From assembly GCF_002884495.1 (NCBI RefSeq), contig NZ_KZ614145.1, positions 1,750,423-1,814,422 of the forward strand: a stretch of 64,000 bases of DNA, in the 5' to 3' direction. This document shows, piece after piece, positions 3,619-7,922 of the stretch. The position numbers and the translations under genes were made by a program. The DNA comes from Rummeliibacillus pycnus. GTDB taxonomy: Bacteria > Bacillota > Bacilli > Bacillales_A > Planococcaceae. Under the pieces are notes generated by a model that saw only the letters and a program-made list of their open reading frames with translations, did not search any database and had not been told where the DNA came from. How positions within the stretch are numbered: the stretch's first letter is position 1; each line of letters begins with the position of its first letter.

Positions 3619-4005
3619 CTAAACCATTACAGTTGCTTCAGGTTCATAATTAATTAATTGTTTTACTTTATTTTGTTCATCTAAAATTGCAACTGTCGGT
3701 TTATGATTTGTGGCTTCTTCTAATGTCATGTAACCATATCCGATAATAATTACAATATCTCCTGGTTGAACGAGTCTTGCAGCAGCACCGTTTAGACAAA
3801 TTACGCCTGATCCACGTTCCCCAGCTATGGTATATGTTTCAAAACGTGAACCATTGTTATTATTTACAATTTGCACTTTTTCATTTGGTAAAATTCCAAC
3901 TGTATCTAATAAATCTGCATCAATTGTAATACTCCCAACATAATTCAAGTCTGCTTGTGTAACTGTTGCTCGATGTAATTTTGAAGTCATCATCATTTTT
4001 AGCAT
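3619..4005 (-). CDS. panD: Aspartate 1-decarboxylase proenzyme
   Basis: PanD decarboxylates L-aspartate to beta-alanine for pantothenate synthesis. The 128-residue length matches the family (about 127). The self-cleavage site Gly-Ser that yields the pyruvoyl group is visible in the N-terminal block YVGSITID. The downstream [13 protein letters not shown] and [14 protein letters not shown] blocks are typical. The start is set by co-linear alignment of the first ten residues with the B. subtilis protein as I recall it. It is the last gene of panB-panC-panD, three bases after panC, so translational coupling is likely. A terminator follows. Confidence 0.96.
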
Positions 4006-4008
4006 TTT

Positions 4009-4860
4009 TTAGATCTCCTCATTCGTAAAAAGAATATTATCAATTAACCTTACGTTTGAAAAATAAACTGCTGTTGCAAGTAAAAATTGATTTGTTTCAG
4101 GGTGAATTTCTTGTAAATCTGGATAGCTTCGTAATTCTAAATAATCTATATGACCTGATGTTTTTGTCTCAATCATATCAATCGCTTTTTGAATGGCAAG
4201 TTCTTTATCATGGTTACTTAAGAAGTCTGCTTTGGCTTGTTGTAATGCTTGTTGAATTATAGGAGCTTGCTTTCTTTCTTCAGCTGTTAAAAATACATTT
4301 CGAGAGCTTTTGGCAAGCCCATCATCTTCACGAACAATTGGTACACTACATATAGTTACCGGAAAGTTGTAATCTCTCACTAACAACTTGATCAAGGCTA
4401 GTTGTTGTGCATCTTTTTGACCAAAATAAGCATTAGTAGGTTGAACGATATGAAATAGCTTTGATACTACTTGTAAAACACCGTTAAAGTGTCCTGGTCT
4501 CGATGCACCACAAAGAATTTTAGAAGCAGGACCTGCTTCGATTCGAATACCTCCATCTGCTGGATACATTTCATCTTCAGATGGAGCGAATAAGTAATCT
4601 ACACCTGCTTCTGTTGCAATTCTTTCATCTCTAGCTAAATCTCTAGGATAATTTTCATAATCTTCATTTGGACCAAATTGAGTTGGATTAACAAAATCAC
4701 TCATCACCACAATGTCATTTTCTTGTCTTGCAGTTTTTGCTAATGTTAAATGCCCTTCATGTAAATAACCCATTGTTGGAACTAAAGCGATCTTTTTATT
4801 TTTTATGCGATACTTTTCTAATTCTTGTTGAAGTTCAATGATTGTTTTGATGACTTTCAT
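4009..4860 (-). CDS. panC: Pantothenate synthetase (pantoate-beta-alanine ligase)
   Basis: PanC condenses pantoate and beta-alanine using ATP, giving pantothenate. The 283 residues show the nucleotidyltransferase HIGH-like motif HEGH after [14 protein letters not shown] (about residues 28-41). [17 protein letters not shown] and [12 protein letters not shown] are further family blocks, as is the KMSKS-type region around [13 protein letters not shown]. Its start overlaps the panB stop by four bases (ATGA), so it is coupled to panB. Its substrates are made by the two flanking gene products, PanB (through ketopantoate reduction by an enzyme encoded elsewhere) and PanD. Confidence 0.96.
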
Positions 4861-5696
4861 CTCTTTATTCCTCCATATAATTGTCCAAGGACTTCATCTG
4901 GCATTGTAAATTGATGTGATGATGTAGGGAATGAACCTTTTTTTACCTCATCTCGATAATCTTCAATCCCTTGTGTTATTTCTTTACCTACTTCCGCAAA
5001 AGTTTTTACAAATTTAGGTACGTGGTGATTACCGTAAGCTAAAACATCATGGTAAACTAATACTTGTCCATCAACTTCTTGACCTGCACCAATACCGATC
5101 ACAGGAATTTTCAATTTCGCAGCAATAACGCCTGCTAATTGATGTGGTACACATTCTAAAACAATTGCACAAACTCCTGCCTCTTCAAGTGCTAATGCAT
5201 CTTCGATTAGTTTTTCTGCCGTTTCAACTGTTTTCCCTTGTACTTTATAGCCACCTAATACTTCTGCAGATTGTGGCTGTAATCCCAAATGCCCTACAAT
5301 TGGAATACCTGCAGAAATTAGTGTCTTAATTGCTTTTACTAATATACCTGCACCTTCCAATTTTAAAGCATTGGCACCGGTTTTTTGGAATACTTGAACA
5401 GCATTTTTTAAAGTGTCTGTTACATCACCATGATAACTTCCAAAAGGCATATCTACGACGATAAATGTATTTTGAGCTCCTCTTCTTGTAGCCTTCCCAT
5501 GATGAATCATATCATCCAATGTTACTTTAACCGTTGAATCATAGCCTAAAACAACCATTCCAAGTGAATCACCAACTAGAATCATATCTACACCAGCATT
5601 TTCAGCAAGCATTGCCGAAGGATAGTCATAAGCAGTTAACATGACAATTTTCTCATTACGTTCTTTCATCTTTAGAAAATCTGTTGTACTTTTCAT
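4857..5696 (-). CDS. panB: 3-methyl-2-oxobutanoate hydroxymethyltransferase
   Basis: PanB makes ketopantoate from alpha-ketoisovalerate and methylene-tetrahydrofolate, the committed step to pantothenate and coenzyme A. The 279 residues contain the metal- and substrate-binding blocks [17 protein letters not shown] (about 40-56), [14 protein letters not shown] and HLGLQPQS. A strong ribosome site (AAAAGGAGGAG) precedes the ATG. It is the first gene of panBCD. Its leader at 5697-5875 carries tandem pan RNA hairpins and a terminator, so expression of the whole operon is probably controlled by conditional termination ahead of this start. Confidence 0.96.
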
Positions 5697-5731
5697 TTAA
5701 GCTCCTCCTTTTAATGAGGAAGAAAACAAAA

Positions 5732-5760
5732 ACCCTTCTGTCAAAAATGGACAGAAGGGT
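5732..5760 (-). terminator. Leader terminator upstream of panB (expression platform)
   Basis: On the minus strand an 11-bp stem, ACCCTTCTGTC with GACAGAAGGGT (5750-5760 with 5732-5742), encloses a 7-base loop and is followed by TTTTGTTTTC. It lies between the pan promoter and the panB ribosome site, so it can stop transcription before panB. Nine bases, the complement of 5749-5757, are also fully complementary (one G-U pair) to the 3' half of the upstream pan hairpin (complement of 5785-5793). That gives a mutually exclusive antiterminator. Confidence 0.85.
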
Positions 5761-5786
5761 AGTATAGTCTCATGTAATCGTTTTCT

Positions 5787-5816
5787 TCCGTCCCTGTCTA
5801 AAAAGATCAAGGCAGA
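5787..5816 (-). ncRNA. pan RNA motif, copy 2 (promoter-distal hairpin)
   Basis: Read on the minus strand, the hairpin has a 4-bp lower stem UCUG/CGGA, an unpaired A on the 3' side, a 5-bp stem CCUUG/CAGGG, an unpaired A on the 5' side, a 3-bp stem UCU/AGA and a UUUU loop. This is the two-bulged-A architecture of the pan RNA motif, a cis-regulatory candidate described upstream of pantothenate genes. The 3' half overlaps the antiterminator sequence, so ligand-stabilised folding would favour the downstream terminator. The assignment is from memory of the motif's shape, not a covariance-model hit. Confidence 0.75.
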
Positions 5817-5845
5817 TATTCTTATTGTAGTGTAGAAAAATTTTT

Positions 5846-5873
5846 AGGTACAGTTCCAATTGGATACTGTCCT
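5846..5873 (-). ncRNA. pan RNA motif, copy 1 (promoter-proximal hairpin)
   Basis: The order of elements is the same as in copy 2: lower stem AGG/CCU, unpaired A on the 3' side, 5-bp stem ACAGU/ACUGU, unpaired A on the 5' side, 3-bp stem UCC/GGA and a 4-base AAUU loop. The base pairs differ completely from copy 2 while the shape is preserved, which is good internal evidence for a conserved RNA. The predicted transcription start (about 5875) falls right at its 5' edge, and 29 bases separate the two copies. Confidence 0.75.
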
Positions 5874-5881
5874 GTGATATC

Positions 5882-5910
5882 ACTATAACAATATTTAAAA
5901 CGATAAACAA
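5882..5910 (-). promoter_or_regulatory. Sigma-A type promoter for panBCD
   Basis: On the minus strand TTGTTT (5905-5910) is followed after 17 bases by TATAGT (5882-5887). It starts four bases beyond the birA stop, so panBCD can be transcribed independently of birA, with a leader of about 180 bases. Confidence 0.65.
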
Positions 5911-5913
5911 TAT

Positions 5914-6897
5914 TTATTTTTGAAGTTCAATATCAGCTGAATAAATGTTTTCAATTCTTCCATCATCAAGCTGTAATTGTAAGATACCATCTTTTGTAAT
6001 GCCAATTGCCTTTCCAACAAAAACATCACGTAAAGTTGTTGCTTTTATACGACTACCAATTGTACAAGAATATTCTTCCCACAAAGTTTTAATGTTTTCA
6101 AAACCTTCTTCAATATATTGTTTACTATACTTTTCTAAATAGAAAAGAATTTTCGCTACGAGTTTCGCTCTGTCAACTTGTTTACCTGAAGCTATTTTTA
6201 ACGATGTGGCAATATGAACAATATCCTCATCAAAATCTTCAGATTCATGATTAACATTAATTCCAATTCCCATAATAATTGCATTCACTCGATCAGGATC
6301 AGCTTGCATTTCTGTTAATATACCAGTACATTTCAAACCATTAATCAATAGGTCATTTGGCCATTTGATATCTGGACGTACTCCTGTCACATCTTTTATA
6401 GCATTTGTAATGGCAACGGCTGCTACTAATGTAAATTGAGGTGCTTCATAGGGTGGAACATCGGGGCGTAAAATAACGCTCATCCAAATTCCTTTCCCCT
6501 TTTGAGATTTCCACTCTCTCATTAAGCGACCTCTACCATCTGTTTGTTCTTCACAGATAATAACTGTTCCGTCTGGTGCTCCCTCTTGCGCATATTGATG
6601 CGCTACTGTTTGAGTTGATGTTAATATTTTTTCATACACAATCTTTTTTCCAAAATGCTCTGTTTCAAGTGCTAATGTGATTTTAGCTGGATCTAATGTA
6701 TCGGGTGTTGAAAGCAATATATATCCTTTTTTTCGAATCGATTCAAATGTATATCCTTCTTCTTCCAGTTGTTTCATATGCTTCCAAATTGCCGTTCTTG
6801 AAATATTCAAGTCATCCGCCAATTGTTGTCCTGAAAGTGGTTTTCCATTTGCAGCAGATAAACGCTTTAATAATTCATATTTAATGGGTACATTCAC
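5914..6897 (-). CDS. birA: Bifunctional biotin-[acetyl-CoA-carboxylase] ligase / biotin repressor
   Basis: BirA makes biotinyl-AMP and attaches biotin to carboxylases. The group II form also represses biotin genes. The 327 residues comprise an N-terminal winged helix-turn-helix (about 1-65, with LSGQQLADDLNISRTAIWKHM), a central ligase domain with the biotinyl-AMP loop GRGRLMREW and KWPNDL, and a C-terminal SH3-like domain. Translation starts at GTG (6897) with AAAGGAA upstream; the nearby ATG is out of frame. In B. subtilis birA also lies next to panB and close to cca. No paired GTTAAC-type biotin operator was found in the window. Confidence 0.95.
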   Translation of the reverse strand: MNVPIKYELLKRLSAANGKPLSGQQLADDLNISRTAIWKHMKQLEEEGYTFESIRKKGYILLSTPDTLDPAKITLALETEHFGKKIVYEKILTSTQTVAHQYAQEGAPDGTVIICEEQTDGRGRLMREWKSQKGKGIWMSVILRPDVPPYEAPQFTLVAAVAITNAIKDVTGVRPDIKWPNDLLINGLKCTGILTEMQADPDRVNAIIMGIGINVNHESEDFDEDIVHIATSLKIASGKQVDRAKLVAKILFYLEKYSKQYIEEGFENIKTLWEEYSCTIGSRIKATTLRDVFVGKAIGITKDGILQLQLDDGRIENIYSADIELQK

Positions 6898-7325: not shown

Positions 7326-7922
7326 ATGAGTATTTCTCTTAAACAAATAGTGTTATCAGTGCTTTTACCTGTTAGTTTTTTAATGACCAGTCTTATCATT
7401 TCTCCTCAAGATACGTTAGCAGCTAAAATGAAGGGCTACGAACTAAAGTCAGGAGACATTTTAATTTCTAGTAAAGGAGGAGACAGAAGAAGTTATACTG
7501 GTCACTCTGGAATTGTTTATAAAGATAAAGTTATTGATATTCATCCACGAAATAAAGGTAAAAAACCTACATATATGAGTTTTGATAAATGGATTAAAGA
7601 TTTTAAAACCACTAAAGTTGTTAGATATAAAGATTCTAAAAAAGCTAAAGAAGCAGGAAAATACGCTTGGGACAATTATATAAAAGGTACATACAAAAAT
7701 AGAACATATGATATAACATCTAACCCCAAAAATAGAAACTATATTTATTGTTCAGAACTAGTATGGCAATCATATTATTATGGACCTAAAGTTACTTGGA
7801 AACATTTTGTTGTAAAGCCCTATAAGGAAATTATTCCTGATATTGTTGCTCCTTACGACTACCTCAATGAATCTTTTCAAAAAATAAATGGTTTCAAAAC
7901 CGCTAAAACAATTGCCTGGTAA
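7326..7922 (+). CDS. Secreted permuted NlpC/P60-like (YiiX-type) papain-fold amidase
   Basis: A 198-residue protein. Residues 1-33 look like a cleavable signal peptide (hydrophobic core, then LAAK). The mature part begins with GDILISS, followed by GHSGIVYKDK (putative catalytic His, about residue 60) and ends with YIYCSELVWQSYY (putative catalytic Cys, about residue 144). The His-before-Cys order is that of the circularly permuted NlpC/P60 (YiiX/YycO-like) group. The substrate is unknown; an amide or thioester of the cell wall or a lipid is possible. The ribosome site AAAGAGGGAG precedes the ATG. It is a single-gene plus-strand unit between birA and cca, not part of the conserved synteny, so probably a lineage-specific insertion. 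Confidence 0.72.
   Translation: MSISLKQIVLSVLLPVSFLMTSLIISPQDTLAAKMKGYELKSGDILISSKGGDRRSYTGHSGIVYKDKVIDIHPRNKGKKPTYMSFDKWIKDFKTTKVVRYKDSKKAKEAGKYAWDNYIKGTYKNRTYDITSNPKNRNYIYCSELVWQSYYYGPKVTWKHFVVKPYKEIIPDIVAPYDYLNESFQKINGFKTAKTIAW

Follow-up and report, generated by a model that had tools for sequence, protein, structure and literature searches.

A pan RNA leader in Rummeliibacillus pycnus and its relatives: a probable two-layer control of pantothenate supply through one contested strand

Introduction

Attenuation in the trp leader of Bacillus subtilis is controlled by a protein, TRAP, and alternative leader helices decide termination there, as they would in the leader considered here; unlike for the trp leader, we know of no protein for pan. 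The FMN riboswitch of Escherichia coli ribB, which reportedly exerts both transcriptional and translational control, offers a likeness of another kind, that of one leader acting at two levels. It differs in that its ligand is known, and in that sensing hairpin, antiterminator and the helix freeing the Shine-Dalgarno (SD) sequence would all draw on a single strand in the pan leader.

The closest described system is the pan motif itself (Rfam RF01749), described by Weinberg and colleagues in 2010 and marked there "Switch?", with a question mark (PMC2864571). In the parts of that description covered here, the main text gives no expression platform, and its additional files may mark terminators. 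A 2022 review, in the portion covered, lists CoA as missing among riboswitch ligands (PMC9971707). An earlier note on the DNA analysed here took the ligand of pan to be unsettled, which agrees with the literature searched, covered in part, where no pan ligand is given. Likewise, a pan ligand, platform or antiterminator, or the second pairing described below (helix H3), was not found in print in a search over partial texts that took in neither bioRxiv nor most subscription journals, and panB is absent from the main text of two published studies on premature terminators and Term-seq. Pan is also named upstream of panBCD in a further paper, where the part covered gives neither a ligand nor a platform.

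The leader analysed here shares with the described pan RNAs a full-length match to the model, tandem hairpins with bulged A's, a position upstream of panBCD and the phylum. In contrast to the pan motif as described, a terminator with its antiterminator, a second pairing directed towards the SD, and a lineage that has no terminator are documented here. Since neither the antiterminator nor H3 was found described, the locus is filed under the known elements, with a two-layer platform that is newly documented and, as judged from sequence comparison and folding models, putative.

Results and Discussion

Architecture of the leader

The window, i.e. the whole 64-kb stretch of Rummeliibacillus pycnus DNA that was analysed, carries the leader on its minus strand, downstream of birA (5914-6897, minus strand) and followed on the same strand by panB (4857-5696; TIGR00222, 363.1 bits, cut-off 207.55), panC (4009-4860; TIGR00018, 331.5 bits, cut-off 212.75) and panD (3619-4005; TIGR00223, 190.3 bits, cut-off 106), all three assigned with NCBIfam models. 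Upstream of birA, on the other strand, positions 7326-7922 (plus strand) give a weak match to LnsA, a lipoprotein N-acylation protein (50.5 bits, cut-off 225).

The letters give a promoter at 5882-5910, with a -35 box TTGTTT (5910-5905), a 17-nt spacer and a -10 box TATAGT (5887-5882) preceded by TGT. Boxes and spacer are as the earlier note had described them, but a consensus scan did not return that promoter. Transcription is expected, from the position of these boxes, to start near 5875. An extended -10 element, TGnTAyAnT, lies upstream of pan in 103 of 120 leaders from the window's family. In genus g14 the common TGnTATAGT box before the first hairpin is replaced by TGTTATTCT, as seen in 13 of 13 leaders read (L016, L022, L025 and others).

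The pan motif had been recognised from the letters alone, with the proposal that the Rfam model be run. RF01749 matches positions 5873-5784 over its full length (model positions 1-92 of 92) with 67.2 bits and E = 1.3e-9, clearly above the gathering score of 36.2 bits, and it is the sole Rfam match in the 64-kb window, even at E <= 0.5. The features that mark members of RF01749 are present: a score above gathering, two bulged A's per stem, a tandem arrangement, and a place upstream of panB, panC or panD. Hairpin P1 (5846-5873, bulged A5849 and A5865) and hairpin P2 (5788-5815, bulged A5791 and A5807) are supported by Rfam, fold and letters, and fold and letters agree with the order of parts proposed earlier for both, namely a lower stem, a bulged A on the 3' side, a 5-bp stem, a bulged A on the 5' side, a 3-bp stem and a 4-base loop. 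The further statement that the two hairpins have almost no base pairs in common does not hold, as 4 of 11 pairs are identical in position, including a U-A and a C-G pair above the 5' bulged A; both bulged A's are common as well.

The intrinsic terminator (5732-5760) was correctly placed by the earlier note and is the only terminator-like site in 5400-6300, where shuffled sequences give 0.3. Its 5' arm (5757-5749, CUUCUGUCC) doubles as the putative partner of the antiterminator strand (5785-5793, GGACGGAAG), which is made up of the 3' side of P2 and the adjoining tail. Overlapping this strand is what we call the strand A tail (5780-5789, GGAAGAAAAC), which has two G's in common with the base of P2 and is the exact complement of strand B (5718-5727, GUUUUCUUCC). 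Strand B lies between the terminator and the SD of panB (AGGAGG, 5704-5709, read from the letters), and could pair either with the strand A tail, forming H3, or with the SD. The 156-nt leader folds with z = -5.07, none of 200 shuffles being equally stable.

Distribution of pan and sample of leaders

Pan was found in 250 of 261 genomes of the window's family, in 150 of 259 genomes drawn from its class and in 152 of 398 drawn from its phylum; the class is taken to be Bacilli, since Bacillus pumilus-group genomes belong to it. The 120 family leaders used for comparison come from 113 genomes and 16 of 19 genera, and comprise 40 loci from search output and 80 picked from lists of pan matches. By homology, 106 of them precede panB (L020 and L034 were placed by their panB match) and 14 precede panC. 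The latter all belong to genus g13, where the operon is split and pan stands before both panB and panC; seven g13 genomes were read at both places, and each half has its pan leader (L032, L076, L110 with L079, L129 with L130, and others).

The antiterminator pairing

The nine-base complementarity between 5793-5785 and 5757-5749, claimed earlier, comprises nine pairs, one of them G-U. The claim that folding of P2 and antitermination exclude each other also finds support, since a leader ended before the 3' arm of the terminator folds into the antiterminator pairing with P2 opened. The earlier note had made its reading depend on conservation of this pairing, and the pairing is kept beyond the class: native partners beat partners from other families in 47 of 60 leaders outside the class (60 of 63 used; p = 2.6e-7), and in 39 of the 60 a U run lies no more than 60 nt behind the best partner of the P2 tail. 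A per-position table of the terminator arm outside the class was set aside, as it was conditioned by the search word, and exact-word counts were used instead.

In the window's family, the word of the terminator 5' arm, CTTCTGTC, occurs in 98 of 120 leaders, and that of the 3' arm, GACAGAAG, in 15 of 120. Being kept far more than its counterpart, the 5' arm appears to be held by something beyond its own hairpin. Pairing is also kept where the words have changed, as in CAGAGGG/CCUUCUG (family f10), CGGAAGG/CCUUUCG (f18) and ACGAAUGCG/CGCAUUUGU (L058).

Mutually exclusive structures, a feature of riboswitch platforms, are thus predicted here in the form of P2, antiterminator and terminator. An equilibrium scan by 3' end put the antiterminator at 0.65-0.70 for ends from 5746 to 5739, and at 0 when the basal pair of P2 was given 5 kcal/mol. 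With the terminator complete, the antiterminator was lost with or without the P2 bonus in the equilibrium model, so that a decision at this level (layer 1 below) must be kinetic.

A second long-range pairing, H3

The earlier note presented the locus as a complete switch ending at the terminator. Its terminator and antiterminator stand, but the completeness does not, as the conserved H3 pairing extends as far as the ribosome binding site, and a terminator is absent in some relatives. Over the 120 family leaders H3 scores 22.45 with native strands, 19.53 after swaps between genera and 10.82 after shuffling; the native score exceeds the swapped one in 110 of 120 leaders, and at least 8 ungapped positions are found in 119. 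A blind motif search in the same leaders, in which strand A was never used, returned strand B as its top motif, a median of 32 nt before the start codon, and ranked it over the terminator arm and the SD. This search replaced an alignment of the 3' parts, run with a heavy gap penalty, in which the H3 signal was absent (69.9% pairing vs 61-70% in slid registers) because strand B was left unaligned.

Co-change was followed in the 94 distinct rows that the 120 leaders provide. In register, 94.0% of cells pair, compared with 57.4-71.3% in slid registers; when strand B was re-dealt among leaders, pairing averaged 88.2% and reached 94.0% in 0 of 1000 re-deals. The 75 cells with changes on both sides were likewise reached in 0 of 1000. 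The core columns with such double changes are position 8 (A-U in 53 rows, G-C in 28), position 9 (G-C in 56, A-U in 9) and position 13 (A-U in 50, C-G in 31). The number of double-change columns (4) is not above chance, being reached in 985 of 1000 re-deals, nor is the number of pair types (12), reached in all 1000. When strand B is re-dealt within genera, the real order is no better than the re-deals (its pairing is reached in 138 of 1000), and the co-change of H3 therefore rests on few, old events.

In the other leaders of the class, of which 55 of 59 were used, the native tail beats tails from other families on the last 58 nt before the start in 38 of 55 (p = 3e-4). The result is strongest in families f3, f4, f7, f152, f170 and f177 and weak in f148 and f158, where the tested region is partly misplaced; starts were taken from PanB homology and lie partly inside the gene, and the 58-nt region can miss strand B. 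Outside the class the same test gave 35 of 54 (p = 8e-4), loci having been dropped for lack of a called first gene or of a recognised P2 end, or for a short leader; it is less clean because the region tested in short leaders takes in the terminator.

Among 42 sites in the window with an SD plus a start codon, that of panB has a strand B score of 19.0 and the next best one of 6.2. In L002, L013 and L017 strand B is distant from the U run of the terminator. Strands A and B are kept in L013, L017, L023 and L037 despite long insertions, which lie between P2 and the terminator, between the latter and strand B, or between strand B and the SD; by eye, several of the insertions in leaders of this type resemble self-contained hairpins.

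Strand B and the Shine-Dalgarno sequence

From strand B to the start, the sequence has a fold below the shuffle mean in 106 of 106 leaders examined, and the between-genus swap of strand B against the SD gave 62 of 106 (p = 0.048), a weak co-change; both figures refer to the 106 of 120 leaders with strand B within 45 nt of the start. When P2 was opened in the energy model, the SD became more open in 25, less open in 2 and unchanged in 83 of 110 family leaders, long leaders and SD words of fewer than 4 bases being excluded from the 120. In the window's own leader, opening P2 raised the modelled openness of the SD only from 0.42 to 0.52, and lowered SD-strand B pairing from 0.58 to 0.02. H3 in this leader was still at 0.63-0.76 with P2 favoured by 5 kcal/mol, and pairing at the base of P2 is 0.82 in the complete leader. 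The energy model names the competing structures, not what tips them.

Leaders without pan and leaders without a terminator

Natural controls are found among the 11 of 261 family genomes that lack pan. Six have no PanB match (one of these, G214, is 75% complete, and another, G019, is 8% contaminated), and five, all of genus g7, keep panB. Over the last 100 nt, strand B scores -8.2 to -1.7 in these five panB leaders, as compared with a median of 16.7 in the 120 leaders with pan and 15.4-15.6 in three pan leaders of genera g2 and g5 that were read apart from the 120. Only two of the 120, L006 and L023, score below 7; in L023 the reason is that strand B sits 242 nt from the start. By the rule of the script, no terminator-like site was found in the last 200 nt of the five leaders without pan; in one of them, L221, an unrelated hairpin followed by a U run was seen by eye behind birA.

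A control of the opposite kind is provided by one Bacillus genus with pan in all of its 44 genomes, where 27 leaders have a terminator-like hairpin plus U run and 17, from the Bacillus pumilus group, do not. Exact-match records were obtained for 10 of the 17: Bacillus pumilus (two strains), safensis (two), altitudinis, australimaris, zhangzhouensis, xiamenensis, stratosphericus and one Bacillus sp.; an eleventh exact-match record, from an Oscillospiraceae metagenome bin, is probably contamination. A terminator scan of two of the terminator-less Bacillus pumilus-group records found no terminator. Both words, that of the tail and CAT(C/T)TCCTC of strand B, are kept in the 17 leaders. The consensus fold of the ten named ones is H3, in which B. 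altitudinis shows a compensatory C-G to U-A change, another double change being found in the inner hairpin; the covariation term is slightly unfavourable (+0.52).

In the model, forcing P2 closed in the 17 terminator-less leaders put strand B on the SD at 0.88 and left the SD unpaired at 0.10, whereas blocking P2 gave 0.21 and 0.38, respectively. The modelled SD was more open upon P2 opening in 17 of 17, and the shift was weaker in the 27 leaders of the same genus that have a terminator (more open in 8, less in 1). With no constraint, 14 of the 17 resemble the P2-closed state, strand B being paired with the SD at no less than 0.74; as they are closed by default, what would open P2 does not emerge from the model. 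This lineage suggests that the second layer is able to act alone.

Genes behind pan and the nature of the signal

The first gene behind pan was considered at 73 loci, mostly outside the window's family, 3 of which gave no call. A single BLASTP-linked group accounts for 38 of the 73, one member of which (L049) matches DUF2520 with 128 bits; the first gene of L186 is DUF2520-like on inspection. DUF2520-type genes we take to be candidate alternative ketopantoate reductases, PanG. The other first genes include 15 panB, 9 panC and one panE (L260). A transporter of the SBF family lies behind pan in L157 and L162, and that of L162 is related to PanS, a family of ketopantoate/pantoate/pantothenate transporters, with 228 bits, below the cut-off of 400. 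An OPT-family transporter (L175) and an amidohydrolase-like gene (L182) are not obviously linked to pantothenate. None of the first genes at the 73 loci was recognised as acting in CoA synthesis.

The second pan copy of one genome (L168) has a gene for a BioY-family protein 296 nt downstream; a promoter-like stretch was noted by eye between the two. PanU, through which Bacillus subtilis imports pantothenate, has similarity to biotin S proteins, according to the part of its description covered here (PMC11487621), and by this analogy the BioY-family protein is a plausible candidate for a pantothenate importer like PanU. In L055 birA comes first behind pan, and the gene after it is a generic ECF S component. 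It was also observed that birA lies upstream of pan in many leaders of the class. Biotin was considered as the signal on account of birA before pan, birA after pan in L055 and BioY in L168, and is not favoured, because the gene in L055 is a generic ECF S component and PanU carries pantothenate. Judged by the set of genes linked to pan, the signal is more likely to be pantothenate or a product made from it than pantoate or beta-alanine.

A two-layer model

The sequence parts described above are conserved, and both long-range pairings co-change between families or genera; the effect of P2 on the SD is modelled; which way control runs, and what kind of signal acts and which one, we infer. On balance we favour the view that the pan leader switches pantothenate supply OFF in two layers, both of which depend on a single contested strand. 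This strand, the 3' side of P2 with its tail, would have three partners: P2 itself, the 5' arm of the terminator, and strand B. In layer 1, a closed P2 would withhold the contested strand, so that the terminator folds and transcription stops, and with P2 open the strand would pair with the terminator 5' arm and let RNA polymerase pass. In layer 2, an open P2 in the transcripts that have passed would leave the tail to pair with strand B in H3 and thereby free the SD; were P2 closed, the first bases of the tail would be taken back, strand B would turn to the SD, and translation of panB would be blocked. What closes P2 would presumably report a full pathway; the most likely signals are pantothenate, CoA and the intermediates that lead from one to the other, and the two bulged-A hairpins would sense the signal jointly.

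It is possible, and in our view rather unlikely, that a dimeric protein instead of a small ligand binds pan and closes P1 and P2, the same two layers following from it. Weinberg and colleagues, in the part of their text covered here, remark that so simple a tandem structure suggests a motif bound by a dimeric protein (PMC2864571), and P2 is closed without any ligand in 14 of the 17 terminator-less leaders, so that the energy model gives a ligand by itself no role. Yet a non-systematic look at the loci read revealed no candidate protein gene prominent beside pan, and birA, although upstream in many leaders of the class, is an uneasy candidate, as pan precedes several other genes elsewhere. Moreover, given the presence of pan in 152 of 398 genomes of the phylum, a binding protein would need an equally wide spread.

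Alternatively, the terminator layer alone could be regulatory, H3 being a helix with a structural role, in protecting the leader or in spacing it, and without control over the SD. The small modelled effect on the SD in the window's family and the weak co-change of strand B with the SD would fit such an arrangement. We consider it unlikely, as the 17 Bacillus pumilus-group leaders without a terminator-like site nevertheless keep pan and the words of strands A and B, the modelled SD effect in them has the same direction in every case, and the strand B-to-start stretch folds below the shuffle mean in all 106 leaders.

The direction of control could also be the reverse, with pan an ON switch whose signal opens P2 and raises panBCD expression. 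Closed P2 is the default of the model in most terminator-less leaders and in the window's leader (P2 base 0.82), and a signal that opens P2 would therefore be needed. Most genes linked to pan, however, make, or probably import, pantothenate or its precursors, and end-product repression would be the common logic for such genes, which renders an ON switch improbable to us.

Finally, we see very little chance that H3 is a by-product, in which any purine-rich tail would find a partner in a U-rich stretch after the terminator and an anti-SD stretch: strand B does directly follow the U run in the window, tail and SD are both purine-rich, and pairing in the controls is still 57-71% after sliding and, on average, 88% after re-dealing, but the blind search puts strand B over terminator arm and SD, three core columns (8, 9 and 13) keep their pairs through two-sided changes, strand B is far from the U run in three leaders and scores low where pan is missing, and the panB site stands at 19.0 against 6.2 for the next of the 42 sites.

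Conclusions

The two-layer OFF switch that we favour bears on a motif described in 2010 whose ligand was not found in the literature searched, at a time when CoA is a conspicuous gap among riboswitch ligands. With an antiterminator found across the phylum, a pairing directed towards the SD, and leaders with and without a terminator in one tractable genus, an orphan motif would become a specific, testable mechanism, and the putative translation-only lock in one bacterial group makes that mechanism easy to test. It is tempting to speculate, at well under even confidence, that pan may be a natural RNA sensor for CoA or pantothenate, in which one contested strand is read out at both transcription and translation, and of which lineages have kept either both layers or the translational one only.
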